DNA from: a bacterium
GTDB lineage: Bacteria; JACRDZ01; JAQUKH01
NCBI GenBank assembly: GCA_028719205.1
Contig: JAQUKH010000013.1
Location: forward strand, 1 to 58,133
DNA: 58,133 nt
Direction: 5' to 3'
Under the pieces are notes generated by a model. The model did not search any database. It saw nothing but the letters and a program-made list of their open reading frames with translations, and was not told where the DNA came from. Positions 18,711 to 40,929 of this stretch are shown here, one piece after another. Numbering within the stretch: position 1 is the first letter of the stretch; every line of letters begins with the position of its first letter. The translations under genes were made by a program, and so were the position numbers.

Positions 18711-19439
18711 ATGTTAATTATTCCCGCGATTGATCTAAGAAAAGGGCATTGTGTCCGTTTGATACAAGGTGACCCGAATCAGCAAACCGTTTACAGCAAA
18801 CAGCCTGTTTCTATGGCCAGGTGGTGGCAGTCCCAGGGCGCTAAGCGCCTGCATGTGGTGGATCTTGACGGCGCGTTTGAGGGGAGGATCGCGAACCTTG
18901 AAACTATCAAAGACATTGTAAAATCAGTTAAGATCCCTGTTCAGGTTGGAGGAGGGATCCGTGATATCGGGATGATTGAAGAGCTTTTTCACGCGGGCGT
19001 TGATTCGGTTATTTTAGGCACGTCGGTCTGCAAGAATAAAAGATTTTTAAAAAAAGCCCTGAAAGAATTTCCCGGCAAGATCATCGTGGGTATCGACAGC
19101 AAAAATGACTATGTTGCTATTTCCGGCTGGAAGAAACTGACAAAGATCAAAACGCTGGACCTGGTAAATGAAGTTGAGTTAATGGGTGTAAAGACAATTA
19201 TCTATACAGATATAAGCCGGGATGGAATGCTTAAAGGCCCTAATTTTTATTCGATCAAGGAGTTATTACAATCATCAACTATATCCCTGATAGCGTCAGG
19301 CGGGATTTCAGATCTTGCCGATATTAAGAAATTAAAAGAAATTGAGAGTGAAAGACTGGTCGGCGCTATTGTAGGGAAGGCGCTCTATTCAGGGAAAATA
19401 AACCTGGCTGAAGCGATAAAGATCGGAAAAAGATGCTAG
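18711..19439 (+). CDS. hisA: ProFAR isomerase (HisA)
   Basis: The 242-residue (beta/alpha)8 enzyme starts [20 protein letters not shown] with the catalytic Asp. [44 protein letters not shown] (second catalytic Asp) and LIASGGISD are the phosphate- and substrate-binding motifs. It performs the Amadori rearrangement of ProFAR to PRFAR. A strong purine-rich ribosome site (AAGGGGAGGAGGGGG) precedes ATG. It overlaps hisF by 7 bp. Confidence 0.96.
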
Positions 19440-20260
19440 CAAAAAGAATTATTCCATGCCTTGATGTGAAAGACGGCCGTGTGGTTAAAGGGGTAAAATT
19501 CCTTAACCTGCAGGATGCGGGAGACCCGGTTGAGGTCGCGAAAAAGTATGAAGAAGAGGGCGCTGACGAAGTAGTTTTTCTTGATATTACGGCTTCCCAT
19601 GAAAAGCGGAATATTATTCTTGATGTCGTGAAAAGAACAGCTGAAATGGTTTTCATGCCTTTAACGGTCGGGGGCGGTATCCGGACCATTGAGGATATAA
19701 GAAACCTTTTGGCTTCAGGCGCGGATAAAATTTCGTTAAACACAGCGGCGGTGAATAATCCTGATCTGATCTCTGAAGGCGCGAAACATTTTGGCGAGCA
19801 GTGTATAGTTGTCGCGATAGACGCGAAAAAGGTCACAAGTCACAAGTTACCAGTCACCAGTGAAAAGCAGAAAACAGAGGGCAATGTAGGGGCGATTCGT
19901 GAATCGCCCAAGAAATGGGAGGTTTATATACACGGCGGCAGAACTCCCACGGGAATGGATGTTGTTGAATGGGCGAAGAAGGTTGAAGGCCTCGGGGCGG
20001 GGGAAATCCTTTTAACCAGTATGGATTGTGACGGGACAAAGAACGGATACGACCTTGAACTGACCCGTGCGGTTTCCGAAGCAGTGAATATTCCGGTTAT
20101 CGCGTCAGGCGGCGCGGGAACACTGGAGCACCTTTACGAGGCGTTCAAAAAAGGCAAAGCGGACGCGGTGCTTGCCGCTTCAATTTTCCACTATCGCGAA
20201 TTTACAATTCGGCAGGCAAAAGAATACATCGCGAAAAAAGGTATCCCTGTAAGAATGTAG
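19433..20260 (+). CDS. hisF: Imidazole glycerol phosphate synthase, cyclase subunit, with in-frame insertion
   Basis: 275 residues, about 20 more than usual HisF. Catalytic Asp residues are in [15 protein letters not shown] (D11 equivalent) and VVAIDAKK (D130 equivalent). Other motifs are [59 protein letters not shown] and [15 protein letters not shown]. The extra residues lie exactly between VVAIDAKK and [10 protein letters not shown]: first [13 protein letters not shown] from a GTCAC/AAGT short-repeat tract (19832-19860), then VGAIRESPK from a REP-type palindrome. In HisF this loop lies near the active-site face, so activity may be altered, but all catalytic residues remain. The UAG stop is part of the next repeat (20257-20327). 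Confidence 0.95.
19886..19910. repeat. REP-type palindrome inside hisF
   Basis: GTAG, then palindrome GGGCGATTCGTGAATCGCCC (19890-19909, 9-bp arms). It is read in the GTA-GGG-GCG phase, which avoids the TAG stop, and adds about nine residues. Directly upstream (19832-19860) is a degenerate GTCACAAGT/CAGTCACCAGT tract that also looks inserted. Confidence 0.8.
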
Positions 20261-20327
20261 GGGCGCAATTCATTGCGCCCAGTGAATCATCAATAAACCG
20301 AAAGGGCGTGATAAATCACGCTCCTAC
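20257..20327. repeat. BIME-like double palindrome between convergent hisF and the redox-sensor gene
   Basis: 71 bp bounded by GTAG and CTAC. The left hairpin is GGGCGCAATTCATTGCGCCC (20261-20280) and the right hairpin GGGCGTGATaaATCACGCTC (20304-20323). The two REP units are in inverted order. The TAG in the left GTAG is the stop codon of hisF, and the TAG in the right GTAG (minus strand) is the stop codon of the 1197-aa gene. It may also terminate transcription in both directions. Confidence 0.8.
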
Positions 20328-23300
20328 ACCACAAAAAGTATTATTACCCCGAATACAAAAACGAATCCCAGCGGCAGGAGGGCGTCATAAAAAACCTTAT
20401 CTTTATTGCCTTTTAACCGCTCGACTATTTTAAAGGTCACTAAAAGGGACAGGCATAAAGAAAGAAACACAATAATTGTTTGGAGGCTGGCGGTAGCTCC
20501 TGAAGAGAGAACGCGTAAATCTGAGAAATCTTTTTTAATGCCAAACAGGAATAGTATACCGGAAAAAATAAGCAATGCCCCACTGGCAAATACCTCTAAA
20601 TAATGAGCCATAAAACCGCCGCGAATAAGAGGGACGAGCCCGTAGGAAATAGCCGCTCTATTCTCCGCGAAGGAAACTCTGACGCGTTTGCTTTGAAGGT
20701 AACACAATAAATTATACACCAGCCACAAAATTATGATCGCTGAGAAAAATAATAAGTTAGTAATAAGTTTTTCCGGTAATTTGCTTAACGAAGAATATTG
20801 CGCGTGAATTTTGTGGACAAAATTGTGAAAGGCAAAATAATAAACGTAAAAAAAGAAAGCCGTACCAAGAGAAAGGATCAAAAAACTATCCGCTAACCGG
20901 AAATTGCGCATGCTCCAGAGTTCATCAGGGACAACACGCAGGTTAAGCTGGATTGACTGGTTCTCGCAATTTTTAATGCAGTTTCCGCAAAGGGTACAGT
21001 CGCGGTTATTGTCTATCATAAATGGATGATCATACATCGGGCAGCCGTTAGACATATCAGTCCCTTTAAAACAGGCGTGGGTACGGCAGCGGTTAGTGCA
21101 AAGATCCCGGTTTGCCCGAAGCTCCACAAGGGAAGACATGGAAAATATGGCGTTTACCGCGCCAAGTGAGCAGAGATAACGGCACCATACCCCGCGTTCA
21201 TAAAACATGCTGAATACAAGAGACCCAAGGATGATCAAAAGGAGAATAATGCCCATAAATTGCGGATGCTCATAAGCGTTCCAGACCAGCTCCAGCCATA
21301 AGACCAGAATACAAAGAACTGTCATGATCCAGCCGGAGTGTTGTACGATAAAACGCGGAGCTTTACGTTTGGGACGCAATAGTTTCTGCGCTAAAAGCCC
21401 CGGTAATGAAAGGGAACAAATGCTGCACCAGATACGGGCAAGGAAAAAATTGGAGAAAAAAAGAAAAGTCCAGCCATAGACCCATACTATTGTCAGGCCG
21501 ATATTATATTTTGCGCTCTTTGGCCCGAAAAATAAAGATAAAATTCCTATATAAAAAATAACACTGATAATAATCTTAGGAAGAATTGGAAAATATGAAC
21601 TTGAAAAAAACTGCCGCACCTTATCAAAACGCAGTAAATTATAACCCAGTTTACCTTCAGTTCTTGGAAGCCCTAACAGGATCTGTTCCGAAAGGATCTC
21701 TCCTGTATCGCTTAAGATCACCGCGCGTTCGATAACGTTGGACATTTCCGTTAAATTACCCGGCCAGTCATAATTCATAAGCACTCCCAGGGCGTCAGGG
21801 GCAATGTTTTTTATCTCTTTAAAATTCTTTTTTCCAAACTGCTTTAAAAAATTTTGTGCCAAAGCCGGTATGTCGCGCTTGCGGCTCCTGAGAGGCGGCA
21901 ATTCAAAGGATTGTTCTGCCAGAAGATTATAAAAATCACGGTTAAAATTGCCGGAATTAACTAAAAACTTAACATCACCGTCAATGAGAAAAATAAACCG
22001 CACAGCAAGGAGAATCTTTCTTTTTCCTCCCAGGGATTGGAAATGTCCGGTTTTTATTGCCTCCAATAGCTTAAGCTGTACGCTTTTTTCAAGGTCTTCA
22101 ATATGAGACAACGCGATCGTTCCACCTTTAAACTGTTCCATATACCCCAGGCGGCGTACCGGCGCGAAAGAAAAAGAATCTTTTTCATAACCGAAAAGCT
22201 CTCCTCCCCAGAGGCGCGGATCAAAACGCCTGGCATCTACTTCGATATAGGGGCCGTCAAGATTCGGGCTCTCCAGGTGAATTTGTTTCGCAACCAGCCT
22301 TTTACCTGTTCCGGCTTCTCCTGTCAAAAGTACAGGACGCAAATTGGCTGAGAATTCGGCAATAGCGGCCCTCATTTGATTCGCCTGATGAGACTCACCG
22401 ACAAAATCACCGGCTTTGATAAGGTCCCCCTTCGCGCTGATCTTAGCGGTACGATCGCTGAAGATACGGGCATTTTCAATAGCGATTGAGGCCTGGCTGG
22501 CTATAGTATCCAGAAGCCGCTGATCATCATCCGTAAAAGGATGCCATTCTTCATCAGCTTTTTTATCATATACGGACATAGTTCCTATAACATTACCCTT
22601 CATAAAAAGAGGAACACAAAGAACCGAACGGATCTCCCCCGGGATATTATGCGCGAAAAGCGGGTTCTTTGCCACGTCATTTGAAATTATCGGTTTACCC
22701 TCTTCAGCTACTTTACCGGCTACACCTTCACCGATCTTTTGGGTTACTGTATGAGCCACTTCATCAGTGATACCATAATAAGACTTAATATGTAAAATGC
22801 CTTCCTGTTCATCTTTCAGCCTTAAAATGACGCCTTCAACTTTCATGAGAGACGCGGTCAGGCTGACGATCTTATATAAGAGGCGCGGCAGGTCATAAGA
22901 AGCGTTGAGTTCTTTGCCTATTTGTGAAAGTGCCTCAAGCTCATCACGCTGGCGGCGGGCTTCCTGATAAAATTGCATATTTTTTAAAAGCTGCGCTATG
23001 TGAGGCGCAAAAAAACTAAAAAGTTTTTTACTTTCGGGGCTGAAAATATCCGCCTCAAGCGCATAGATCGAAAGCGCCCCGAAAGGATCATTGTCACCCG
23101 TACATATGAGGGGAACAACAAGCGCGGCGTTATATTTTATATAATTATTATCAAATTCCTTGAGAGCCGCGTTATTTAAATAAATTATTTTTTTTGACCG
23201 CATTACTTCATAAATAGGGGACGATCCCTTCAGATACTCTTTTCGGGTCGCTTGTTTACTTTGGTCTATACCTCCGCAATAAGCGGATTCTTTAAGTCGT

Positions 23301-23917
23301 TCCGGAGTTCCAAGATAAAGCTCACAAAGGTCAGCGTTAAAATTATTTAAAACAAGCTCGGTAATTTTTTCTTTAATATCTTCAAAAGAGAGATCGGTTG
23401 AAGCAAGAGCATTTAATTTATTTAAAAATGATAATTCAATTTCTTTTTTCTTCAGGTCGGCCTGATCGGATTCTTCCGCCCGGTGAGCGGTTTCTGTCCG
23501 ATTTTTCGAAGCTTCGCGCAGCCTTTCAGCAAGTGCTTCATCAAGCAGGCGGTGGATGCGGGGATTTTCCAGGAGTATTTCATCAAAGGCTATTTTTTCC
23601 AATGAGAGTAAAATCAGGTCTTCGGAAGCTTTCACGCTGCGTGAACGGGGGCTTCCGGTCAAAAGAGATATCTCGCCAAAGTGGTTCCCGGCGGATAGAT
23701 GCCCTACGGTGCTTGTCCCTCCGTCATCATAATTCACAATAAGATCAACTTTACCCTGGACGATCACATAAAAGGCATGGCCCATCTCGCCCTGACGATA
23801 AACATAACCGCCTTTTTTTACAACAAGCTCTTCTGTAACGGAAGCAATAAGCGCAAGCTCATCCGGCTTGAGTTTGTGAAATAAAGGTGTATCAGCCAGT
23901 AATTTTGTTTTATCCAT
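20324..23917 (-). CDS. Fusion: cNMP-binding, two GAF, degenerate sigma54-type AAA+, membrane Fe-S (NapH/NosR-like)
   Basis: 1197 residues. Residues about 1-130: cyclic-nucleotide-binding fold (GQMGHAFYVIVQGKVDLIV-like core, HFGEISLLTGSPRSRSVKA). About 165-320 and 330-490: GAF domains. About 500-745: sigma54-activator AAA+ domain with Walker A GEAGTGKR (about 533), ELFGYEKDSFSFA where GAFTGA should be, and GTIALSHIEDL where Walker B Asp-Glu should be; the later LPPLRSRKRDIPALAQNFL and YDWPGNLTEMSNVIERAVIL are conserved. No Fis-type DNA-binding helix follows. Instead, about 770-1197 is a multi-spanning membrane region with WCSICSLSLPG, WCRYLCSLG, a CTNRCRTHAC cluster and the ferredoxin motif CTLCGNCIKNC (about 980). 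It is probably a membrane redox or electron-transfer protein gated by nucleotide and GAF ligands, not a sigma54 activator. Confidence 0.88.
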   Translation of the reverse strand: MDKTKLLADTPLFHKLKPDELALIASVTEELVVKKGGYVYRQGEMGHAFYVIVQGKVDLIVNYDDGGTSTVGHLSAGNHFGEISLLTGSPRSRSVKASEDLILLSLEKIAFDEILLENPRIHRLLDEALAERLREASKNRTETAHRAEESDQADLKKKEIELSFLNKLNALASTDLSFEDIKEKITELVLNNFNADLCELYLGTPERLKESAYCGGIDQSKQATRKEYLKGSSPIYEVMRSKKIIYLNNAALKEFDNNYIKYNAALVVPLICTGDNDPFGALSIYALEADIFSPESKKLFSFFAPHIAQLLKNMQFYQEARRQRDELEALSQIGKELNASYDLPRLLYKIVSLTASLMKVEGVILRLKDEQEGILHIKSYYGITDEVAHTVTQKIGEGVAGKVAEEGKPIISNDVAKNPLFAHNIPGEIRSVLCVPLFMKGNVIGTMSVYDKKADEEWHPFTDDDQRLLDTIASQASIAIENARIFSDRTAKISAKGDLIKAGDFVGESHQANQMRAAIAEFSANLRPVLLTGEAGTGKRLVAKQIHLESPNLDGPYIEVDARRFDPRLWGGELFGYEKDSFSFAPVRRLGYMEQFKGGTIALSHIEDLEKSVQLKLLEAIKTGHFQSLGGKRKILLAVRFIFLIDGDVKFLVNSGNFNRDFYNLLAEQSFELPPLRSRKRDIPALAQNFLKQFGKKNFKEIKNIAPDALGVLMNYDWPGNLTEMSNVIERAVILSDTGEILSEQILLGLPRTEGKLGYNLLRFDKVRQFFSSSYFPILPKIIISVIFYIGILSLFFGPKSAKYNIGLTIVWVYGWTFLFFSNFFLARIWCSICSLSLPGLLAQKLLRPKRKAPRFIVQHSGWIMTVLCILVLWLELVWNAYEHPQFMGIILLLIILGSLVFSMFYERGVWCRYLCSLGAVNAIFSMSSLVELRANRDLCTNRCRTHACFKGTDMSNGCPMYDHPFMIDNNRDCTLCGNCIKNCENQSIQLNLRVVPDELWSMRNFRLADSFLILSLGTAFFFYVYYFAFHNFVHKIHAQYSSLSKLPEKLITNLLFFSAIIILWLVYNLLCYLQSKRVRVSFAENRAAISYGLVPLIRGGFMAHYLEVFASGALLIFSGILFLFGIKKDFSDLRVLSSGATASLQTIIVFLSLCLSLLVTFKIVERLKGNKDKVFYDALLPLGFVFVFGVIILFVV

Positions 23918-24024: not shown

Positions 24025-24303
24025 ATGAATAAATATACTTTTAAGCTTTTTATATCCGGTGAGAAAGAAGAGTCAAGCCTGTTAATAGAAAAATTAGAAG
24101 AGATCTTAAAGAAGCAGTTAAATAACAATTTTGAGCTTCGCATTGTCGATATTTTAAAAAATCCCGCAATAGCAGAAGAAGATAAAATTTTAATTATCCC
24201 GACGTTAATTAAGAGTTCCCCTCTGCCGGTAAAAAAAATATTCGGGGATCTGCTGAATGAAAAAATTATTTTGTCATATTTGGATATACCTGATAAAAAT
24301 TAG
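24025..24303 (+). CDS. KaiB-like protein
   Basis: The 92-residue thioredoxin-like protein matches KaiB along its full length: an N-terminal beta strand YTFKLFISG, then ELRIVDILKNPAIAEEDKIL, IPTLIKSSPLPVKKIFGDL and ILSYLDI. The EEDKIL...PTL....P.PV.KI.GDL pattern is the KaiB signature. In cyanobacteria KaiB binds KaiC and resets the clock kinase; in other bacteria KaiB-like proteins often accompany histidine kinases or stress genes. No kaiA or kaiC occurs in the window. No Shine-Dalgarno precedes ATG. It starts a row of sensory genes, with the PhnD-like gene 14 bp later. Confidence 0.88.
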   Translation: MNKYTFKLFISGEKEESSLLIEKLEEILKKQLNNNFELRIVDILKNPAIAEEDKILIIPTLIKSSPLPVKKIFGDLLNEKIILSYLDIPDKN

Positions 24304-24317
24304 GAGGTTAAATCAAA

Positions 24318-25232
24318 ATGAAAATCAATAAATATTTCCCATTAGTTTTTACAATTATATTCTGCGGCATAATTACTTCATCCGGTTTAACGGCAGGAGA
24401 AATAAAGAAGTTCAAAAAGGGGGATAAATTCACGATCGCTCTTATCCCCGAGAGAAATATCTTTGAACAGAGAAAACGGTATAAATATATAACGGATTAC
24501 CTGTCTAAACATCTTGGGCTGGATGTAAGGGCGGAGGTTTTATCAAATTATGGCAAGATCTGCGACGTGTTCCTGAATAATGAAGTCGACGCGGGTTTTT
24601 TTGGGAGTTTTAGTTATGTGTTAACAAGAGCACAGACAAATATTATTCCAATAGCAAGGCCGGTAGAACTTGACGGTACTTCCACTTACACCGGATATAT
24701 ATTTGTCCGCAAGGACAGTGGCATTAAATCGGCAAAAGATATGAAAGATAAAGTATTGGCCCTGGTTTCCAGGGCAACTACCGCGGGATATATTTTTCAG
24801 CTGGATTATTTTCAAAAAAACGGGATAAAGGACATGGAAAAATATTTATCTAAGATTTATTTCGCAGGTTCACACGACGCCGCGGCATGGTCTGTATATA
24901 CGGGAGAGGCGGATATCGGAGGATGTAAAAATCATATTTTTAATGAGTTATGCAAAAAAAATCCGGATTTTAAAAATAATATGGTTATTTTGGAAGAATC
25001 AGTACAGGTCCCAAGTAATGGTATTGCTGTCCGGGCTGATATTGATCCTGACCTGCAAAAACGCCTCAAAGACCTGTTATTAAACCTTGATAAAGATCAG
25101 GAAGGGAAAGAACTGTTGAAAAAATTTGCCGTGATAAAATTTATTGAGACTTCAGATAAAGATTATGATGCCCTTTATAAAATGGTTGATAGATTAAATA
25201 TTAACCTGAAAACTTATCCTTATCATGATTAA
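24318..25232 (+). CDS. PhnD-type periplasmic binding protein
   Basis: 304 residues with a signal peptide (about 1-26). The body matches the phosphate/phosphonate-binding-like family: TIALIPERNIFEQRKRYKYI, VDAGFFGSFSYVLTRA, YTGYIFVRKDSGIKSAKDMK, GEADIGGCKNHIF and VPSNGIAVRADID. It has a strong AGGAGG ribosome site. No ABC permease or ATPase lies beside it, and the next genes encode membrane sensors. It therefore probably works as a periplasmic ligand sensor rather than for uptake. The ligand is unknown. Confidence 0.85.
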   Translation: MKINKYFPLVFTIIFCGIITSSGLTAGEIKKFKKGDKFTIALIPERNIFEQRKRYKYITDYLSKHLGLDVRAEVLSNYGKICDVFLNNEVDAGFFGSFSYVLTRAQTNIIPIARPVELDGTSTYTGYIFVRKDSGIKSAKDMKDKVLALVSRATTAGYIFQLDYFQKNGIKDMEKYLSKIYFAGSHDAAAWSVYTGEADIGGCKNHIFNELCKKNPDFKNNMVILEESVQVPSNGIAVRADIDPDLQKRLKDLLLNLDKDQEGKELLKKFAVIKFIETSDKDYDALYKMVDRLNINLKTYPYHD

Positions 25233-25256
25233 ATTGTGATGCAAAAGGAAATATCA

Positions 25257-28200
25257 ATGAATATTTCATATAGGCATGTCCGCGCGCTTGGATTTTCAAT
25301 TCTGATATCATTATATGTCATAGGCTGCCTTATTGCCTATACCGCTCTGAAAAATAATTCTGATAATTTATCAGCTGTATTAAAAACCGAAGAATTAACA
25401 GGAGATAAATGGAATGATCTGTCGAAAATAATAAGCGATTGCAAGGACAGTGTCTATAATTTCAGTTCCGGCAGAAGTGAAGTTATATCACCCGCGCTTT
25501 TACTTATTAATAACGCGTCCAGGCAAATAGAAGAAATAAAAAATTCAACCTCTGACGAAGAAGTAAAAAATATCATAAAAGAAATAGAATTTGGCATGAA
25601 ATTATTAAGGCAGGCTGCGATCGGATATCAGTCTGAAATAAAAATGGGGCACAGGAGCGGTACCTCAACAAAAGAATTAGAAGAGATAATGTTAACGCAG
25701 GCTGACAACTTATCGCAATTATGCTGGGCCGCACTTGAATATATACACAATAAAATGGAAATAAAAAACAAAGAAATAATCAGATCCACAAACCTTATGA
25801 AGTTATTTTTGGTCCTCTCGATCTTTTTGGGAATCGGCACTGTGATTATTTTCTCGTTAATTATGAACAGGGCGCTCGCGAAACCAATTTACAGATTAGT
25901 GGAGGCGACTAAACTTGTCGCTAAAGGCAATTTAGCGCATGAAATAGAAATAAGTTCCAGTGATGAAATCGCGGATTTATCTTTATCCTTTAACCAGATG
26001 ATCAGGGATTTAAGGATTTCCCTGTCACTGCTTGTGGATAAAGAATATATTGATTCTATCATTGCAAATATGGGCGAATCTTTAATTGTGGTTAACCCTG
26101 ATGGAATGATAAGAACAGTTAACGACGCGACATTAAAACTGTTAGAGTACAGCGAAGAAGAAATTATCGGCAAGCCGGCCTCAATGATTTTCTCTGAAGA
26201 AGAAATTCTTAATGAATTGGATGAAGAGGCCTGTTTGATTTCCAGTGATTTTAAAATAATTGAAGCAAATAATTCTTTTTTAAAAAATACGGGATTTAAA
26301 AAGGAGGATATCATAGGCCAGTATTGTTTTAAAATATTGCACAATAGTGATAATATATGCCAGCCCCCCGGCCATAAGTGCCCTATATTGGAAGCTAAAG
26401 ATGTTTATGACCTTCAGGTTGAAATGCACACGCACTATGATTTTTTTGGGAAAAAGTATTTAGTTAATGTTGTCGCTGCCCCTATAAAAGAAAAGGATGA
26501 AATTATTTATTTGCACATGACAAAGCATGTTCTTGAAGAAGGCTTAAAAGGTAAACTATCACAGGAAAATGAAAAAAAGCTGAAGCTGTTTATATCAAAA
26601 TTGAAAAAGTCGCTCAACAGGTTAATTGATGAAAATATAGCGTCAGCGGATTCAATTGAAAAATATTCAAAGCTGGAAAAACTTAACAAACATAAAAATT
26701 TTGATATCTATTACAAAACAAAATCAGGGCATAATGTGCCTGTCAGTTTTTCCGGTTCTATTATGAAAAATAAAGAAGGCGATGTGCTGGGTATTATAGG
26801 CGTCGCGAGGGATATGAGGCCGACAAAAAAACTTATTTCAGATATTGAAGAAGCCAAAGAAATAATAGAAGAAAGCAATAAAAACTTTTTGAATATTGTT
26901 GAAGGAAGCCTGACGGGTATAATCGTGCTGGATAAAAATGGGATAGCGCGTTTTATAAATTCCACCGCTAAAAATATTTTTGGCGGTAAAATTGAGGATC
27001 TAAAAGATAAATATGTCGGATTGCCGATAATCAATAACAAACTGACGGAAGTCGATATTGTCAGGGACAAAGGTAAAGTGGGTATTGGGGAAATATCCTT
27101 TGTTGAGACAAAGTGGGAAGGAAAAAAAGCTTATCTTTTGTTTATCAGGGACATAACAGAATATAAAAAGTCACAGAAGGAAGTAAAAATATTATCGACG
27201 GCCATGGAACAGAGTACTACAAATATTATGTTCTTTTCAGATACTAACGGATTAATTGAATATGTAAATCCGATGTATGAAAAGTTTACGGGATATTTAA
27301 AAAATGAAATGATCGGAGAATATTTTGAAATACTGCTGGGAGAAATAAGTGATTACGGGGATAAAAACTTATTAGATATCATCAATGAAGATAAAAAATG
27401 GCAGGGTGTTATTAAAAATAAGAAAAAAGACGGAGAAGTATACTGGGCGTATTGTACTATTTCTCCCATTAAGGATAGTGAAGGAAAAATAAACCATTTT
27501 ATCGGGGTTCAGGAGGATGTTACGGATAAAATAATGTCAGAGGAAAAAATACAGTTTCTCAGTTCCTATGATGAAATGACGGGTGTGAATAACCGGTCAA
27601 GTTTTATGGGTAATGTAAATAATATTTTATCATCTGGAAAGAAACAGAACAGTGTTTTCATGCTAATAAATATAGATTATTTCCGGGCTATTAATGAAAC
27701 CTACGGCCATAAGATCGGAGATGAATGCCTGCATAAGATCGCTGGCATTTTAAAAAATGTTTTAGATAACTATTCTAAAAATAAATCGAATCCTGAAGGG
27801 AAAGAAATATTTACGATCGGGCGCATAAGCGGAGATGAATTCGCGATTTTTTATCCGTATATAAACCGTGAAGAAACGTTAAATATAGCTGAAGAGGTCC
27901 GTAAAAATGTGGAAAATGCCGCTTTCGCGAACGTGCTTTTACATTTAACCGTAAGTATTGGTATTGTTTTCTACCCGGATGATGGTTTAACTTCAAAAGA
28001 GCTTCTTACAAAAGCGGATGTTTCAATGTTTCGCGCTAAAGACAAGGGGAAAAATTGCTATCATATTTACAGCCCCGAGGACCATGACCTGGAAAAAATA
28101 CATTCTAAGATAAAATTGAAGGAAACTGTCGAAAGCGCGCTTAAAAATAACCGTTTAGAAGTGTGGTATCAACCGATAGTGGATCTAAAGAATAATAAGA

Positions 28201-28850
28201 TCAGGCATTATGAAGGATTAGTCAGGATCCGTGAAGAAAATAATACCGTTATTTTTCCCAGGCTTTTTATTGATGTGGCCGAACAATTCGGCCTTGTCGG
28301 TTCCATAGACAGGATCGTCGCGAGAAAGATCATGAAGACCCAGGTTTTAATGAAACAAAAACAACAGGATCTGTTTTTTAATATTAACCTTTCCGGAAAA
28401 GATCTGGGAGATAAAGACTTGCTTTCGTTCCTTAAATCCAGCATATCTGAGTTGAAAGCAAATCCTAATCATTTGATTTTTGAGATCACGGAAACTGTGG
28501 CAGTTCAAAACGTGACAAACGCTGTCTGGTTTATTAATGAGTTGACTTCTATGGGATGCCGTTTTGCCCTGGATGATTTCGGATCAGGATTCAGTTCGTT
28601 CTTTTATCTTAAGGATATGGCCATTGATTATATTAAAATAGACGGGTCATTTATAAAAAGATTGTATCGAAGCCCTAAAAACCAGTTATTTGTCAAGGCT
28701 ATTGTTGATGTCGCGCAGGGAATGGGGATCAAAACAGTCGCTGAATTTGTTGAGCAGGAAGAAACCCTTGAGCTGCTCAAAGGCCTGGGGGTTGATTACG
28801 CGCAGGGTTACCTGATAGGGAAACCGTTGCCTGAATTAATTTCTTCTTAG
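25257..28850 (+). CDS. Membrane sensor with HAMP, four PAS, GGDEF and EAL domains
   Basis: ATG 25257 is chosen over upstream GTG/ATG codons because AAAAGGA precedes it and it aligns with the start of the paralogous kinase. It gives 1197 residues. Membrane helices at about 8-30 and 178-202 enclose a helical periplasmic domain. Then come HAMP (about 202-260), PAS units near 268-320, 330-430 (with C...HKCPI cysteines), 540-640 and 645-760, GGDEF (about 765-925) and EAL (about 935-1190). The cyclase motif is RISGDEF (858-862), first Gly replaced by Ser. The EAL motif is EGL (986-988), but FEITET, LDDFGSGFSSF, IKIDGSFI and the catalytic Glu in VAEFVEQ are present. Phosphodiesterase activity is likely; cyclase activity is uncertain. 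Confidence 0.9.
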   Translation: MNISYRHVRALGFSILISLYVIGCLIAYTALKNNSDNLSAVLKTEELTGDKWNDLSKIISDCKDSVYNFSSGRSEVISPALLLINNASRQIEEIKNSTSDEEVKNIIKEIEFGMKLLRQAAIGYQSEIKMGHRSGTSTKELEEIMLTQADNLSQLCWAALEYIHNKMEIKNKEIIRSTNLMKLFLVLSIFLGIGTVIIFSLIMNRALAKPIYRLVEATKLVAKGNLAHEIEISSSDEIADLSLSFNQMIRDLRISLSLLVDKEYIDSIIANMGESLIVVNPDGMIRTVNDATLKLLEYSEEEIIGKPASMIFSEEEILNELDEEACLISSDFKIIEANNSFLKNTGFKKEDIIGQYCFKILHNSDNICQPPGHKCPILEAKDVYDLQVEMHTHYDFFGKKYLVNVVAAPIKEKDEIIYLHMTKHVLEEGLKGKLSQENEKKLKLFISKLKKSLNRLIDENIASADSIEKYSKLEKLNKHKNFDIYYKTKSGHNVPVSFSGSIMKNKEGDVLGIIGVARDMRPTKKLISDIEEAKEIIEESNKNFLNIVEGSLTGIIVLDKNGIARFINSTAKNIFGGKIEDLKDKYVGLPIINNKLTEVDIVRDKGKVGIGEISFVETKWEGKKAYLLFIRDITEYKKSQKEVKILSTAMEQSTTNIMFFSDTNGLIEYVNPMYEKFTGYLKNEMIGEYFEILLGEISDYGDKNLLDIINEDKKWQGVIKNKKKDGEVYWAYCTISPIKDSEGKINHFIGVQEDVTDKIMSEEKIQFLSSYDEMTGVNNRSSFMGNVNNILSSGKKQNSVFMLINIDYFRAINETYGHKIGDECLHKIAGILKNVLDNYSKNKSNPEGKEIFTIGRISGDEFAIFYPYINREETLNIAEEVRKNVENAAFANVLLHLTVSIGIVFYPDDGLTSKELLTKADVSMFRAKDKGKNCYHIYSPEDHDLEKIHSKIKLKETVESALKNNRLEVWYQPIVDLKNNKIRHYEGLVRIREENNTVIFPRLFIDVAEQFGLVGSIDRIVARKIMKTQVLMKQKQQDLFFNINLSGKDLGDKDLLSFLKSSISELKANPNHLIFEITETVAVQNVTNAVWFINELTSMGCRFALDDFGSGFSSFFYLKDMAIDYIKIDGSFIKRLYRSPKNQLFVKAIVDVAQGMGIKTVAEFVEQEETLELLKGLGVDYAQGYLIGKPLPELISS

Positions 28851-28895
28851 ACCAAAGGATTTGAGGATTAAAAATATTTTTTAAAAGGTGTATAA

Positions 28896-30749
28896 ATGGA
28901 TATTTCTTACCGCCAGATCCGTAAGATCGGTTTGCTGATCTTTATTTCACTATATATTATCGGCTGCCTTATCGCGTATATGGCTTTAAAAAAAAATTCA
29001 GATAATTTGTCAAATATACTGAATGTTGAAGAAATTAAACTGAAAAACTGGTATGACCTGTCAAAAGTAATAAGTGATATTAAAGACAGTATTAATAATT
29101 ACAGTTCCGGTAAAGTTGAAGTCATATCACCCGCGCTTTTACTTGTTAATAACGCCTTTTCACAAATAAAAACAATAAAAGAAAAAAATATTGAAGAAGA
29201 AGAAATAATTGGCGCTACAAAAGAAATAGAATACGGATTGAAAGTTTTAAGGCAGGCCGCGGCCGGTTACCAATATGAAGTAAAACTCGGGCACAAGAAC
29301 GGAACTTCAGCAAAAGAATTAAAAGATATGATGATAACAGAGGCGGATAATCTGTATCAGCATTCATGGGCGGCTGTTGAATACATACAAAACAGGATAG
29401 AAGAAAAGAATAAAGGGATCCTCAGGTCTACGAACCTTACGAGGCTGTTTTTAATTTTCTCGATATTTTTGGGTATTTTCATTGTAATTATTTTTTCGTT
29501 AATTATGAACTGGGCGCTTTCGAAACCTATTGACAGGCTGGTTGAGGCCATAAAATTTGTCGCGAAAGGGGATATGACTCATGAAATAGAGGTAAAATCA
29601 ACTGACGAGATCGGGGATTTAACTATAGCTTTTAATCAAATGATCAGGAATTTAAGAACTTCCCGGTCTATGCTTGTAAATAAAAAATATATTGAAAATA
29701 TTATAGAAAGTATTCCAGCAGCGTTGATAGCATGCGATAATGAGTTAAAAATAAAGACAATCAACAGGACCTGCTGTAATGTTTTTGGAGTAAATAAGCA
29801 TGAAATTATTGGTAAACACCTTGAGGATATTTTAGGGGTGGAAGTTATTAAAAATAAAAAACTCATAGAAAAAACGTTTGAAATTTTTAAGAAAGGCGGA
29901 GTTTCGGAAGAAATGGAAGTAAAATATGATTTCTCCGGAAAAGGAGAAAAAATATTGAATCTTAAAATAGTAGGAATAAAAGAGGAAAAAGAGGTCTTGC
30001 TTCTTTTAAATGACATTACGGAAAAAAAACAACTTGAAAAACAGCTTGTTATCACTGAAAAAATGGCAGGTATAGGCCAGCTTGCAGCGGGTATATCTCA
30101 TGAATTTAATAACCTTTTAGCGGTTATAAGAAGTTCCGCGGAGTTTGCCGGTAAAACCGGAAGGGAAGAGGATATAAATGATTCTTTCGCTAAAACATTG
30201 CAGTGTGTTGATAAAGGCAGTGAGATCGTTAAGAATCTGCTTTCCTTTTCAAGAAGGATCGCGGATAAAAAAGAAAAAGCGGACATAAATAATTTAATTG
30301 AGGAAGTTTTGTTTTTAATTAAGACGGACCTGGACAAGAGTAATATAAAAGTAATTAAAGAATTTGCCCAATTACCGTCGGTATCAATTAATATCGGCCA
30401 AATACAGCAGGTATTTTTAAATGTTATAATCAATGCCAAACAATCTATGTTAAAAACAGGAGATAGGCTGAAGATAACCACTAAAAACGTCGATGGGAAT
30501 GTGTTAATTATTTTTAATAATAACGGTGAGCTTATCAATGAAGAACATATTGGAAGGATTTTTGACCCATTCTTTACTACTAAAGGAAGCCTTGGGGGTG
30601 GCGATGTCGGCGGGACAGGGCTTGGCCTGTCGGTTTCTTATGGAATAATGCAGTCGCATGGAGGAATAATTAGTGTTGCAAGCAGCCAAAAAGAAGGTAC
30701 AACATTTACAATTAAATTACCTGTAACAAAAATGGGAAAAAACATATAA
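28896..30749 (+). CDS. Sensor histidine kinase sharing its sensor with the GGDEF/EAL protein
   Basis: 617 residues. The first ~270 residues are clearly homologous to the preceding GGDEF/EAL protein (for example ISYRQIRKIG, LYIIGCLIAYMALK, EVISPALLLVNNA, then HAMP), with well over half of positions identical by eye. A PAS domain (about 270-375) follows, then the H-box AAGISHEFNNLLAVI with H402, INAKQSM (N-box), IFDPFFTTKG and GGTGLGLSVSYGIM. It is an active-looking kinase. It lies 45 bp after the GGDEF/EAL gene and 11 bp before the receiver-XRE gene, its probable partner. Confidence 0.93.
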   Translation: MDISYRQIRKIGLLIFISLYIIGCLIAYMALKKNSDNLSNILNVEEIKLKNWYDLSKVISDIKDSINNYSSGKVEVISPALLLVNNAFSQIKTIKEKNIEEEEIIGATKEIEYGLKVLRQAAAGYQYEVKLGHKNGTSAKELKDMMITEADNLYQHSWAAVEYIQNRIEEKNKGILRSTNLTRLFLIFSIFLGIFIVIIFSLIMNWALSKPIDRLVEAIKFVAKGDMTHEIEVKSTDEIGDLTIAFNQMIRNLRTSRSMLVNKKYIENIIESIPAALIACDNELKIKTINRTCCNVFGVNKHEIIGKHLEDILGVEVIKNKKLIEKTFEIFKKGGVSEEMEVKYDFSGKGEKILNLKIVGIKEEKEVLLLLNDITEKKQLEKQLVITEKMAGIGQLAAGISHEFNNLLAVIRSSAEFAGKTGREEDINDSFAKTLQCVDKGSEIVKNLLSFSRRIADKKEKADINNLIEEVLFLIKTDLDKSNIKVIKEFAQLPSVSINIGQIQQVFLNVIINAKQSMLKTGDRLKITTKNVDGNVLIIFNNNGELINEEHIGRIFDPFFTTKGSLGGGDVGGTGLGLSVSYGIMQSHGGIISVASSQKEGTTFTIKLPVTKMGKNI

Positions 30750-30760
30750 GGAGTAAAAAG

Positions 30761-31369
30761 ATGAGAAGGTTAATAGACAAATTAAAAATACTTGTAATTG
30801 ATGATGATAAAAATTTATGTGAGAATATTGAAAAAATTCTTAGTTTTGAGGGTTATTCAGTAAAAACTGCTTTTGACGGGCCGGGCGCCTTAAAAATAAT
30901 CCAATCTGAAAAAATTCACATCGTTATATTGGATTTAATAATGCCAAAGATGAGCGGGATAGATGTTTTTAAGAAAATAAGGAATATAGATCCGAATATA
31001 AAAATAATCATTTTAACGGGTTACCCGACAATAGAAACAGCAGTTACTACTTTAAGAGGTGAAGCAAGTGATTATATAACTAAACCTTTTAAAAATGAAA
31101 ATTTATTGAAAGTGGTAAAAGCAGCTGTTATAAAAACCGGATTGTTTGAGGATCCTTTAAACAGGCTGGATAAACAAATAGGTATGAATATAAAAAATTA
31201 CCGAATGAAAAAATCACTTATGTTAAAAGACCTTGCTGAACAGGCTGGACTGTCAACGAGTTTAATTTCACAGTTGGAAAACGGGAAAAATGCCGCTTCA
31301 ATTTTAACCCTTTACAAAATCGCGCAGGTTTTGGGATTAAAAATAACTGATTTAGTCGAAGGTCTTTAA
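30761..31369 (+). CDS. Response regulator: receiver fused to XRE-type helix-turn-helix
   Basis: 202 residues. Receiver domain about 8-125: ILVIDDDKN, HIVILDLIMPKMSG with D58, IILTGYPT, DYITKPFK. Residues about 140-200 form a Cro/C1-type (XRE, HTH_3) DNA-binding domain: MNIKNYRMKKSLMLKDLAEQ, then GLSTSLISQLENGKNAAS and LYKIAQVLGLKITDLVEG. Most response regulators use OmpR, LuxR or Fis-type helices; XRE output is uncommon. A good AAGGAG ribosome site is present. It is the probable end of the kaiB-like operon and could control it or the binding-protein gene downstream. Confidence 0.92.
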   Translation: MRRLIDKLKILVIDDDKNLCENIEKILSFEGYSVKTAFDGPGALKIIQSEKIHIVILDLIMPKMSGIDVFKKIRNIDPNIKIIILTGYPTIETAVTTLRGEASDYITKPFKNENLLKVVKAAVIKTGLFEDPLNRLDKQIGMNIKNYRMKKSLMLKDLAEQAGLSTSLISQLENGKNAASILTLYKIAQVLGLKITDLVEGL

Positions 31370-31399
31370 TTAAGAAAAAAAGTAAAGAATAATTTCCGC

Positions 31400-31428
31400 T
31401 TGACAAATTTAGTATAATAGAATATAAT
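31400..31428 (+). promoter_or_regulatory. Consensus sigma-70 promoter upstream of binding-protein gene
   Basis: TTGACA (31400-31405), 17-bp spacer, TATAAT (31423-31428), an exact consensus match. It begins 31 bp after the receiver-XRE stop and drives the gene at 31479, so that gene is a separate transcription unit. Confidence 0.75.
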
Positions 31429-31478
31429 TTACTAATACTGAATTATGGGTTGTTAATAAAATCACTTTTCTAAAATTA

Positions 31479-32750
31479 ATGAATAATAAAAATAACGGTT
31501 TTTTTATTTTTATTTGCATGTTTTTTGCTGTTACAAATATTTTTGCCGCGAAAATGCAAGGTGCACAGTCTGTTTTAGAGAATACAAAACCTATTAAAAT
31601 CGGTATTCTTAGGCCGCATCCGAAAAATACGACAGTTACTGAGAAGTTTATTATTAACGCCACATTACTGGCAATTGAAGAAATTAACAAGCAGGGTGGT
31701 GTTTTAAAAAGGAAAATTGAACCTGTAATAATTAACTGTCCTTCCGATCAGAAAATAATAATCGAAGAAGTAGAGCAGAAGATCGATGAAAAAAAAGTAA
31801 GCGTGATATTTTGCTGTGGAAATTCCTTCATCAGTGAAACGGTAAGCCCTATCTGTGAAAAATATGATATTCCTATGTTTTTCCCTTGTAAATCCGGCAA
31901 ATTTAAAAAATTCCCTAATGTTATTTATACCGGTACTATGCCAAATCAGCAAATTAGCCCGGCAATAAAGTGGTCTTCTGATAATTTTGGTAAAAAATAT
32001 TTTCTCGTTGGTTCCGACACGAATTTTTCAAAAGTTTACAATTCAATTATTAAAGAAAATATAAATGTTTCAGGAGGAAAAATTATCGGAGAAATTTGTA
32101 TACCCGAAGACAGCGGAGATTTTGACGAGGCAATGAGAAAAATAATTGAGGTTAAACCGGATGTTATACTTAATACAATTTCAGGGGAGAGCAATGTCTA
32201 CTTTTTTATTAATCTATGGGTGAAAAAAATTAAATCTGACAAGGTTCCTGTTATATCATTCGATATCTCGGAAAATGATTTCAAAAATATGAGCCCTAAT
32301 GAGGCAGCTGGAAATTATATTATAAAAAGCTATTTCCAGAATATTGACTCTAAGGAAAACAATAAATTTTTTAGTGAATTAAAGGAAAAATGCGGTGAAA
32401 TCCAGATAATTGATGATTCAGTGGAGGCGGGTTATTTTGGAGTATACCTATGGAAACAAGCTGTTGAGGACGCGGAAACAGATAACGCTAAGGATTTCAT
32501 GCGATTTATGACTGCGCAGAACTTTAACGCTCCGGAAGGTATGGTTTGTGTGAGTATCGGGAATCAATATACGTGGAAAACAATAAAAATAGGGAAAATA
32601 GGAAAAAATAAACAATTTGAGATAGTTTGGTGTTCGGACGCGCCGGTAAATCCGGAGCCCGGCCTTTTACTTGTTGAAAAACCCAAATCGGGATCGAAAA
32701 ATACTCTTGAGGAATTACATAAGAATAGGGAAAAAAATGCAATGAGGTAA
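31479..32750 (+). CDS. Periplasmic ligand-binding protein, Leu/Ile/Val-type (Peripla_BP_6)
   Basis: 423 residues with a signal peptide (about 1-24, ending IFAAKM). The two-lobe fold is seen from IKIGILRPHPKN, ATLLAIEEINKQGGVLKRKI, VSVIFCCGNSFISETVSPIC, IPMFFPCKSGKF, FLVGSDTNFSKVYNSI, IIGEICIPEDSGDFDEAMRK and NAPEGMVCVSIGNQYTWK. It resembles the amide/urea-binding group (FmdD/UrtA). No permease or ATPase genes are near, so a sensory role with the neighbouring kinases is possible. It has no clear Shine-Dalgarno; an exact consensus promoter lies 50 bp upstream. Confidence 0.85.
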   Translation: MNNKNNGFFIFICMFFAVTNIFAAKMQGAQSVLENTKPIKIGILRPHPKNTTVTEKFIINATLLAIEEINKQGGVLKRKIEPVIINCPSDQKIIIEEVEQKIDEKKVSVIFCCGNSFISETVSPICEKYDIPMFFPCKSGKFKKFPNVIYTGTMPNQQISPAIKWSSDNFGKKYFLVGSDTNFSKVYNSIIKENINVSGGKIIGEICIPEDSGDFDEAMRKIIEVKPDVILNTISGESNVYFFINLWVKKIKSDKVPVISFDISENDFKNMSPNEAAGNYIIKSYFQNIDSKENNKFFSELKEKCGEIQIIDDSVEAGYFGVYLWKQAVEDAETDNAKDFMRFMTAQNFNAPEGMVCVSIGNQYTWKTIKIGKIGKNKQFEIVWCSDAPVNPEPGLLLVEKPKSGSKNTLEELHKNREKNAMR

Positions 32751-38815: not shown

Positions 38816-40846
38816 TTATTTTTTTGAAACATCAGGTTTAATAATTTTTACTATTGACTTAATTGTTTCGACTGGAATATTAATATTCTCTGATATTCCG
38901 TTATTTTGATTTTTGGAACTGAATCCTATACTGCCGATATTTCCTTCTGAAGCCGGCATTTCGCCGAACCTGTTTTTAATCTTTTCTAAAGGAACAGGTG
39001 AATCTAAACTTCCGTGAGTTTCACATGTAACTTTACCTGAAGTGCTGTCTATAGAGTAGCTGTCACGCGGCCTTTTTTTGATTAAAGGTATTGTGTTTTC
39101 ATTAGCGAATAGTTCATCCAGATTTTGCGGATATTTTTTCATTTCATTATAGTATGATCCGGCAGCATTTTCAATGTTCTTAATGATGTCAAAACAAGAT
39201 TTTTGCTTATTTGATTTTGAGAAACCATTAATTGTTTTTATAATTGAGATTATTGATAAATATGATATTGAGTCGGTGTCTTCAGGTAAATTCATAATAG
39301 CCGCCTGATACTTTGGAGATTTTACAAGTGGAGAGCGGGTTCCGTTGTTTAATGAATCAATAGTTTGTTTTATTAAATCGTCTGATTCGGAAAAACAGAA
39401 TATTTGTTTATTTTTTGTGACTGCTTGCCATGAAATTAAGTCATTGAGCCATGAAAAAGTTTTCTCTATTTCAGGAAGATTAATATTAGTTTTAAAGGAT
39501 GTAATATTAACTCCATTATAATCAATAACCTCTTTAATTTCTGAAGGATGCTCTGGGTTTGAAAAAGGATTATTTTGTCCAAATGCCCTAAATAGCATTT
39601 TGGGGTTCTCCATACTTAACTGTTTTTGAATATTCGAGGCTTCCGGCATATTTGTAACTTCCCTGACCCATAAAATGTTAATCGGAAATTTTCCTGATGA
39701 CGGAAAAATCGCAATACTTTCTTCATTCCCTAGATATGAGGCCTGCCATTTTAGATTTTCTAGTAATGATTCCTTAAATTTTGTTATTTCCGTACTGTCT
39801 AATGCTAAAATGGTTGTGTCAACATTCTCCAATATTCTAGAATAAATATCCGGCAATGTTTCGGGATTTGATTTAGTGTCGGTGGCGAATATACAGTTAT
39901 CATTTATATATTCCATATGCCTCAGTTTTATGTTCTTTTGTACCAGATAATTTTGAATAAGGCTTTCTTTTTTGAATCCTAAATAAGAATCGATGACTAT
40001 TCCTTTTTCATGTAGATGAGCTGAAAAGCCGGCGCTTTCTAATTGTTCAAGCATCCAGGTAACTAGCTTTAAATACGACCTGGAAAGGTTTTGAAGCTGT
40101 TGAGGATCCATTTTTTGATTTTGAGGATTTTGACCCACATTTGGACTGCTGATTGCTTTTTGCGTATACATGTCTCCGAATAATTGGATCGTGGGCAAGA
40201 ACATATTCACTAATAATTCCGCATTTACATACATTACAATTTCATAATCTCTGATTGATTTATTGAGGTTTGAATATTTAGGGTTTGCCGTTATGGAATT
40301 ACTTTTTCCTTTATAACAATTAATGATCAACCTTGCAGTGGTTTCATCGCCGCAATTCACAAGGTAATCATCAATAAAAAAATAACATTCCTGTTTTGAT
40401 TGCGAAAAAATGTAAATTTCAATCCCTTCATGGATAGGGATCGGTTCAATAAGATTCCCTTTTTTATTTTTTAAGGATTCTAAAGTTTTATCTTTGTTAA
40501 TGATCTGATAAGCGTATGCCTTGTTTTTCCAGTTAAAGCCCGGCCAAAACAGGATCAAGTCGCCGTTTATTTTTATGCCTGTTTCATTTTGCAGTTCTTC
40601 CTTGTTTTTAGCTTTAACATCAATAAGCCCTCCTATTAAGCTGGAAACAGATTGCTCTTTTTGGTTATATGTCGAATCTATTTCATATGCAAGTTTATCT
40701 ACAGAACCTATGGTTTTTTCAACATCTGAGATCCTTAAATATCCGAGAGACTCTGAGGGCACAAATCGCAGGCTATCTGAATAAACATAAGGTGTTAATA
40801 TATTAATAATTAATATTATAAATAAAGCAGTAAAACATTTTTTCAT
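38816..40846 (-). CDS. Secreted protein of unknown function, DUF3352-like
   Basis: Start ATG 40846 has AAAGGAG nine bases upstream, better than an in-frame ATG 30 bp earlier. It gives 676 residues. A signal peptide (MKKCFTALFIILIINILTPY) precedes repeated alpha/beta units typical of DUF3352-like proteins (VPSESLGYLRISDVEKTIGS; EIVMYVNAELLVNMFLP; INILWVREVTNMPEA). Near the C-terminus, CFDIIKNIENAAGSYYNEM plus KKYPQNLDEL resembles the C-terminal region of type II/IV pseudopilins. It is probably periplasmic or on the surface. The assignment to DUF3352 is tentative. Confidence 0.6.
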   Translation of the reverse strand: MKKCFTALFIILIINILTPYVYSDSLRFVPSESLGYLRISDVEKTIGSVDKLAYEIDSTYNQKEQSVSSLIGGLIDVKAKNKEELQNETGIKINGDLILFWPGFNWKNKAYAYQIINKDKTLESLKNKKGNLIEPIPIHEGIEIYIFSQSKQECYFFIDDYLVNCGDETTARLIINCYKGKSNSITANPKYSNLNKSIRDYEIVMYVNAELLVNMFLPTIQLFGDMYTQKAISSPNVGQNPQNQKMDPQQLQNLSRSYLKLVTWMLEQLESAGFSAHLHEKGIVIDSYLGFKKESLIQNYLVQKNIKLRHMEYINDNCIFATDTKSNPETLPDIYSRILENVDTTILALDSTEITKFKESLLENLKWQASYLGNEESIAIFPSSGKFPINILWVREVTNMPEASNIQKQLSMENPKMLFRAFGQNNPFSNPEHPSEIKEVIDYNGVNITSFKTNINLPEIEKTFSWLNDLISWQAVTKNKQIFCFSESDDLIKQTIDSLNNGTRSPLVKSPKYQAAIMNLPEDTDSISYLSIISIIKTINGFSKSNKQKSCFDIIKNIENAAGSYYNEMKKYPQNLDELFANENTIPLIKKRPRDSYSIDSTSGKVTCETHGSLDSPVPLEKIKNRFGEMPASEGNIGSIGFSSKNQNNGISENINIPVETIKSIVKIIKPDVSKK

Positions 40847-40929
40847 AAAATGGTCTCCTTTAGGCAGTATTATCAATTTAATTAAAACGCTTTATTCTAA
40901 CCTTTCCTATTTTATTTGTCGAGTGATTT

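Follow-up and report, generated by a model that had tools for sequence, protein, structure and literature searches.

A degenerate sigma54-activator AAA+ domain fused to cyclic nucleotide-binding, GAF and membrane Fe-S-type domains in a single bacterial protein

The Fusion Gene and Its Domain Order

The window analyzed here comprises all 58,133 nucleotides of contig JAQUKH010000013.1 (assembly GCA_028719205.1), which stems from a bacterium of a small phylum. On its minus strand lies a gene in which a cyclic nucleotide monophosphate (cNMP)-binding domain, two GAF domains, an AAA+ domain of the sigma54-activator type and a polytopic membrane domain with iron-sulfur (Fe-S)-type cysteine motifs follow one another (Table 1). 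The gene at 20324–23917 is one intact open reading frame (ORF) of 1197 amino acids with an ATG start and no internal stop, and a same-genus orthologue is 80–81% identical along the entire protein. Pfam models match the protein at residues 32–117 (cNMP_binding, 5e-19), in two GAF stretches, at 506–667 (Sigma54_activat, PF00158, 4e-33), at 677–745 (AAA_lid_14, 1e-20) and at 889–926 (Fer4_5). No helix-turn-helix (HTH) model is among the Pfam matches, and the lid is followed by a linker and transmembrane (TM) helices. No single Pfam or NCBIfam model covers the whole protein, and such proteins are annotated as “cyclic nucleotide-binding domain-containing protein” or “nitrogen assimilation regulatory protein.”

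An earlier interpretation of this stretch, made from its letters alone (the sequence-only reading), had proposed a fusion of this kind within one polypeptide, and the intact ORF and the domain matches bear it out. Nearly every homologue collected encodes the AAA+-membrane order in one ORF, which rules out a missed gene boundary.

Table 1. Positions of the fusion gene and its parts in the window.
Feature	Residues	Coordinates	Strand	Evidence
Whole gene, cNMP-GAF-GAF-pseudo-AAA+-Fe-S membrane fusion	1–1197	20324..23917	minus	ORF and domain scan; same-genus orthologue
cNMP-binding domain	8–140	23498..23896	minus	Pfam PF00027; AlphaFold2 pLDDT about 85–90
Phosphate-binding cassette FGEISLLTGSPRSRSVKA with Glu82 and Arg91	80–97	23627..23680	minus	Sequence
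GAF domain 1	about 160–315	22973..23440	minus	Pfam, two GAF stretches
GAF domain 2	about 325–487	22457..22945	minus	Pfam GAF_2 346–481
Sigma54-activator-type AAA+ core, catalytically degenerate	506–667	21917..22402	minus	Pfam PF00158, 4e-33
Walker A GEAGTGKR, kept (GEAGTGK = 533–539)	533–540	22298..22321	minus	Motif counts
Asp561 at the “switch Asn” position	561	22235..22237	minus	Alignment
DSFSFA replacing GAFTGA	580–585	22163..22180	minus	Motif alignment
Walker B GTIALSH, Ser604-His605 replacing Asp-Glu	599–605	22103..22123	minus	Motif alignment
Lost Arg fingers (N659, L665)	659, 665	21923..21943	minus	Motif counts
AAA+ lid, T723 in place of sensor II Arg	677–745	21683..21889	minus	Pfam AAA_lid_14
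Conserved lid-membrane linker LGLPRTEGKLGYNLLR..., where an HTH would sit	746–777	21587..21682	minus	Alignment
Polytopic membrane domain, about 9 TM helices	778–1197	20327..21586	minus	Homologue-averaged hydropathy
CSIC (C831, C834), after TM2	831–834	21416..21427	minus	Invariant, 48 sequences and 11 diverse sequences
CRYLC (C912, C916), after TM4	912–916	21170..21184	minus	Invariant
Ferredoxin-like loop, 8 Cys (940, 944, 949, 959, 974, 977, 980, 984)	940–984	20966..21100	minus	All 8 invariant

Loss of the Catalytic and Sigma54-Contact Motifs

The AAA+ domain retains its fold. Its AlphaFold2 model matches NtrC1 (1ny5/1ny6) best, with a Z-score of about 26–27 (Foldseek/VIA). The state of its motifs was assessed in 62 family members from the phylum of the window, Desulfobulbia, cyanobacteria and other lineages and in 37 ordinary bacterial enhancer-binding protein (bEBP) controls, all aligned to one model that was built from bEBPs, so that loop positions of the most divergent members are only approximately aligned. 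The Walker A Lys or Arg is present in 61/62 family members, being Arg in 27 (about 44%), and in all 37 controls; binding of ATP by the AAA+ pocket is therefore plausible from the retained motif.

The remaining active-site elements are lost throughout the family. An intact GAFTGA loop occurs in none of the 62 members, whereas nearly all 37 controls carry it or a one-residue variant. Where bEBPs have GGTLFLDE at Walker B, the fusion protein has GGTIALSH; across the family the Walker B Asp is found in 0/62 (controls 36/37) and the Glu in 0/62 (controls 35/37), the latter being replaced by His (33), Asn (25), Gln (2), Gly (1) or Ser (1). The switch position is Asp in 56 of the 62 members and Asn in 29 of the 37 controls, although Asp alone is not diagnostic as 5/37 controls share it. 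In 55/62 members, the glutamate-switch pair Asn/Glu has thus become Asp together with His, Asn or Gln. The first Arg finger is absent from every family member (36/37 controls have it), while the second persists in three and the sensor II Arg in two (37/37 controls each). The replacement of GAFTGA by DSFSFA and of the Walker B acids by Ser-His, the missing DNA-binding helix and the CTLCGNCIKNC motif had all been listed in the sequence-only reading and are confirmed, to which the lost Arg fingers and sensor II Arg are now added. A homologue with intact GAFTGA and Walker B motifs and an HTH was looked for among the collected sequences and not found.

These losses are accompanied by strong constraint. 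Against the same-genus orthologue, the ratio of non-synonymous to synonymous substitution rates (dN/dS) is 0.09 overall and falls to 0.038 for the AAA+ domain and 0.048 for the Fe-S loop, values that are approximate since dS lies around or above 1, near saturation. The AAA+ domain is, by this comparison of sequences, constrained and not decaying. Local decay or misassembly, in which a broken sigma54 activator was joined by chance to a neighboring membrane gene, is accordingly hardly credible: a stop codon within the AAA+ domain of one homologue (genome G002) and a few split members (L170, L056) could be taken to speak for it, but the identical fusion and the same residue losses recur across phyla, with an AAA+ dN/dS of about 0.04. 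Decay of a single gene is ruled out by the same losses in all 62 collected members.

The same constraint is among the points in favor of another possibility, namely that the domain has remained active as an ATPase or remodeler and works on a new substrate by means of the replacement residues (His or Asn at Walker B, Asp at the switch), for instance in loading or maturing Fe-S partners. The near-universal Walker A and the coordinated change of the switch pair would also fit such an activity. Given the loss of the Walker B Asp, the catalytic Glu, both Arg fingers and the sensor II Arg, and an Arg in place of the Walker A Lys in about 44% of members, it is nevertheless quite improbable.

The Predicted Sensing Domains

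The cNMP domain is well modeled, and its best structural matches are the cNMP domains of PKG and PKA (Z about 20). Its phosphate-binding cassette contains both residues expected of a CRP/PKA-type cNMP-binding domain, E82 and R91. Among aligned family members with a residue at the respective position, the Glu is found in 51/52 and the Arg in 22/52. The source genome encodes a class III nucleotide cyclase, as do 10 of the 11 carrier genomes tested; this fits cNMP sensing, but such cyclases are common. In the AlphaFold2 model of the full protein, built from a 48-sequence alignment, the cNMP and AAA+ domains are good while the GAF domains are poor, because the homologues in that alignment lack GAF domains. 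The GAF domains are confined to the window’s own phylum among the family members seen. GAF domain 1 is the fastest-evolving domain, with 62% identity to the same-genus orthologue, as compared to 91% for GAF domain 2. Gating by nucleotides, as proposed in the sequence-only reading, thus stands in part: it is favored for the fusion protein itself by the retained Glu82/Arg91 cassette and the cyclase of the source genome, but does not extend to the many relatives without the cassette Arg, and no GAF domains were seen in members beyond the phylum.

The Linker and the Membrane Domain

Residues L748, G749, P751, E754, G755, K756, N760, L762 and R763 of the linker are invariant in 48 sequences, a conservation nearly equal to that of the cysteines in the membrane part. 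Thirteen cysteines (831, 834, 869, 912, 916, 940, 944, 949, 959, 974, 977, 980, and 984) are invariant in the same 48 sequences, and all of these except C869 are also invariant in 11 diverse family members. The segment CTLCGNCIKNC at 974–984 corresponds to a ferredoxin-like CxxCxxCxxxC motif, which would be expected to hold Fe-S clusters. The TM count and the distribution of charges predict that the cysteine loops, including the ferredoxin-like loop, face the cytoplasm on the side of the AAA+ domain, and the cysteine motifs suggest that the membrane domain transfers electrons. Modeled alone, this domain reaches a mean pLDDT (predicted local distance difference test) of 79.

Distribution, Ancestry, and Co-occurrence With Sigma54

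A scan of GTDB genomes yielded 48 high-coverage homologues, most of them from Desulfobulbia and usually of about 880 amino acids, with cNMP, AAA+ and membrane domains but no GAF domain. All four genomes of the window’s phylum contain a family member, and three of the four also encode a paralogue with GAF, AAA+ and membrane domains and no cNMP match. At E ≤ 1e-75, a family profile (A1) built from 11 diverse members had matches in 13 genomes out of a diverse set of 386; among these, G204 has the membrane domain alone. Matches were found in 71/291 cyanobacterial genomes, most covering the AAA+ and membrane domains, and in 65/145 genomes of the Desulfobulbia class, where a large share is a free-standing membrane domain; the membrane module hence occurs both fused and on its own. 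The same AAA+-membrane fusion thus recurs in Desulfobulbia, cyanobacteria and other lineages. The homologue in genome G002 (L126, 1495–5124) is divided into two ORFs by a TAA stop inside the AAA+ domain, owing to either a sequencing error or a pseudogene.

In a tree of AAA+ domains, one branch (SH-aLRT 99) parts the family from bEBPs. A single origin of the degenerate form would fit this topology, in which the root is arbitrary and some branches within the family are long. Sigma54 is encoded by the source genome, by the three genomes related to it and by several further carriers; it was not found in three tested carriers (G050, G194, and G325) recognized as cyanobacteria from their phycobilisome genes. 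The family as a whole therefore does not need sigma54.

Comparison With Known Systems

The fusion protein shares the GAF-AAA+ order and the AAA+ fold with NifA/NtrC-type bEBPs. The curated NifA model is the nearest over the GAF-AAA+ part (326–748, 6e-68), and, of the solved structures, a NifA chain (9qq6_C) matches best in sequence. Of the features of a bEBP, the NtrC-type fold and Walker A are present, while the GAFTGA loop, the Walker B Asp-Glu, the Arg fingers, the sensor II Arg and the C-terminal HTH, which is usual but not universal in bEBPs, are all missing. Furthermore, the lid leads into a membrane Fe-S domain, and the family also occurs without sigma54, although the source genome has it. 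Certain atypical bEBPs deviate from the usual layout too, such as FleT, which has neither a receiver nor a DNA-binding domain (PMC7175178), and VpsR-like relatives. The non-canonical relative VpsR is one of the structural matches to the AAA+ domain. It still binds DNA, and none of the FleT- or VpsR-like atypical bEBPs is known to have a membrane redox domain.

The membrane part has the two membrane-adjacent cysteine pairs (C831/834 and C912/916) and the CxxCxxCxxxC loop (C974–984) which broadly characterize NapH/NosR-like proteins. With NapH/MauN (TIGR02163), it shares these motifs and a weak profile match (2e-10; 40.8 bits against a cut-off of 213), but differs in its approximately nine predicted TM helices and the attached cNMP, GAF and AAA+ domains. 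NosR/NirI proteins similarly combine a membrane domain with cysteine pairs and an Fe-S-type loop; the fusion protein differs in its cytoplasmic AAA+ half, scores 18.2 bits with the NosR profile (cut-off 1000) and has no FMN-binding domain, a feature of NosR, among its Pfam matches. A description of the fusion or the family was not found in open-licence PMC papers, and the family is apparently undescribed. Each part is of a known kind; what appears to be new is how they are combined and that the AAA+ active site has been lost throughout the family.

A Putative Adaptor Between Ligand Sensing and Membrane Redox Chemistry

It is probable, on balance, that the AAA+ domain is a hydrolysis-dead, sigma54-independent adaptor which connects the ligand-sensing domains with a redox module resembling NapH/NosR. 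In such a mechanism, the cNMP and GAF domains of the N-terminal cytoplasmic part would sense small ligands, and the AAA+ domain, derived from a sigma54 activator but presumably no longer able to hydrolyze ATP or contact sigma54, would act as an adaptor that is either nucleotide-bound or assembled constitutively. Its lid could relay the ligand-induced change via the invariant linker to the C-terminal Fe-S module of NapH/NosR type, which probably links the quinone pool to a cytoplasmic partner by electron exchange. That an AAA+ domain can be locked in one state has a precedent in the Walker B Glu mutant E108Q of PspF, which hydrolyzes ATP poorly, binds it more tightly and forms constitutive hexamers (PMC4132715). 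Mutants of GAFTGA usually fail in activation (PMC7175178). By analogy with PspF E108Q, the AAA+ domain of the family is most likely a nucleotide-stabilized adaptor. The sequence-only reading had proposed that the core of a transcription factor found a second use on a membrane electron-transfer protein, as a domain for regulation or as a scaffold. This proposal has gained ground through the ancient degeneracy in 62/62 members, the polytopic cysteine-bearing domain in place of a DNA-binding domain and the carriers without sigma54.

Several observations weigh against this adaptor reading. Without both Arg fingers, a bEBP-like hexamer is doubtful and a normal hexamer cycle is unlikely, so that the oligomer may differ. 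The Arg in place of the Walker A Lys in 27 of 62 members may mean that nucleotide binding is lost in some, and the absence of the cassette Arg from many members rules out cNMP binding as a property shared by the whole family. Searches with the membrane domain gave chance-level matches only among PDB folds, where a missing match proves nothing, and short ferredoxin matches only in profile comparisons, with none alike among solved structures. Finally, no conserved gene for a partner enzyme lies beside the fusion gene across the lineages compared.

A more specific version of the adaptor is offered tentatively, as somewhat less probable than not: the family may be a widespread redox gate, in which the altered switch pair (Asn/Glu to Asp/His-or-Asn) freezes the AAA+ domain in a nucleotide-bound state and couples second-messenger sensing to electron flow through the membrane Fe-S domain, independent of transcription. 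A transcription-activating AAA+ machine would then have been recruited into membrane redox biology, once as far as the tree tells. About a quarter of the sampled cyanobacterial genomes carry the family, and annotation still names such proteins regulators. The family constitutes a natural experiment on what the bEBP fold does without hydrolysis and would provide a testable link among second messengers, sulfur metabolism and membrane electron transfer.

Gene Neighborhoods and Further Observations

The neighborhoods of family genes bear on the direction of coupling, which could also be reversed: the membrane Fe-S domain would then sense the quinone redox state, oxygen or sulfide, with the AAA+/cNMP/GAF part as the output that recruits a partner, for instance a transcription factor, a histidine kinase or a response regulator. 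In the window’s phylum, the paralogue with GAF, AAA+ and membrane domains (L122, 4000–9966) lies between a gene for a hybrid GAF-PAS histidine kinase-receiver and one for a CheY-like receiver; the same three-gene order is found in L119 and L120, and hence in three genomes in all, in keeping with such an output. NosR/NirI proteins, for which a regulatory role has been reported (PMC8139620), set a precedent for regulation by membrane proteins with cysteine motifs. In one cyanobacterial subgroup, cysK follows the gene in six of nine loci (gaps of 5 bp in L165 and 17 bp in L166), and genes for DsrE, rhodanese, Rieske and D1 proteins, a MerR regulator or Hdr-like proteins are found nearby. This set is small and non-random, but provides a lead toward sulfur or redox stress; the cysK, DsrE, rhodanese and Hdr-like neighbors would make a sulfide-responsive role possible. 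However, cNMP and GAF domains are normally inputs and not outputs, a DNA-binding domain is absent, and no partner gene is conserved across lineages, which leaves the reversed direction unlikely compared to the proposed adaptor function. One cyanobacterial copy adjoining cysK (L170, 3039–5758) consists of two overlapping ORFs.

The remaining neighborhoods are less informative. In Desulfobulbia, hisD-rsmG-leuB-prs often lie before the gene and mlaA after it, a housekeeping setting which gives no functional clue, and the free-standing membrane-domain homologues adjoin genes for a trypsin-like protease and transport, which are equally uninformative. In the window, 63 bp separate the fusion gene from hisF, with which it converges, and 107 bp separate it from a divergent kaiB-like gene (24025–24303) that is close to it in the sister genome too; there, a same-strand gene that reads as PocR-PAS-HD-GYP-like from its sequence lies upstream.

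Beyond kaiB, a plus-strand cluster at 24318–32750 encodes a PhnD-like binding protein, a PAS-GGDEF-EAL protein, a histidine kinase, a response regulator with a Cro-type HTH and a UrtA-like binding protein. A 686-amino-acid ORF with a TTG start on the minus strand (38816–40876) has no NCBIfam match at 0.001. Within hisF (19433–20260), an in-frame insert of about 30 codons contains the palindromic repeat GTAGGGGCGATTCGTGAATCGCCC at 19886–19909, which has 11 matches at about eight places in the genome (0 for the reversed control), and hisF of the sister genome bears a different insert at the same spot.

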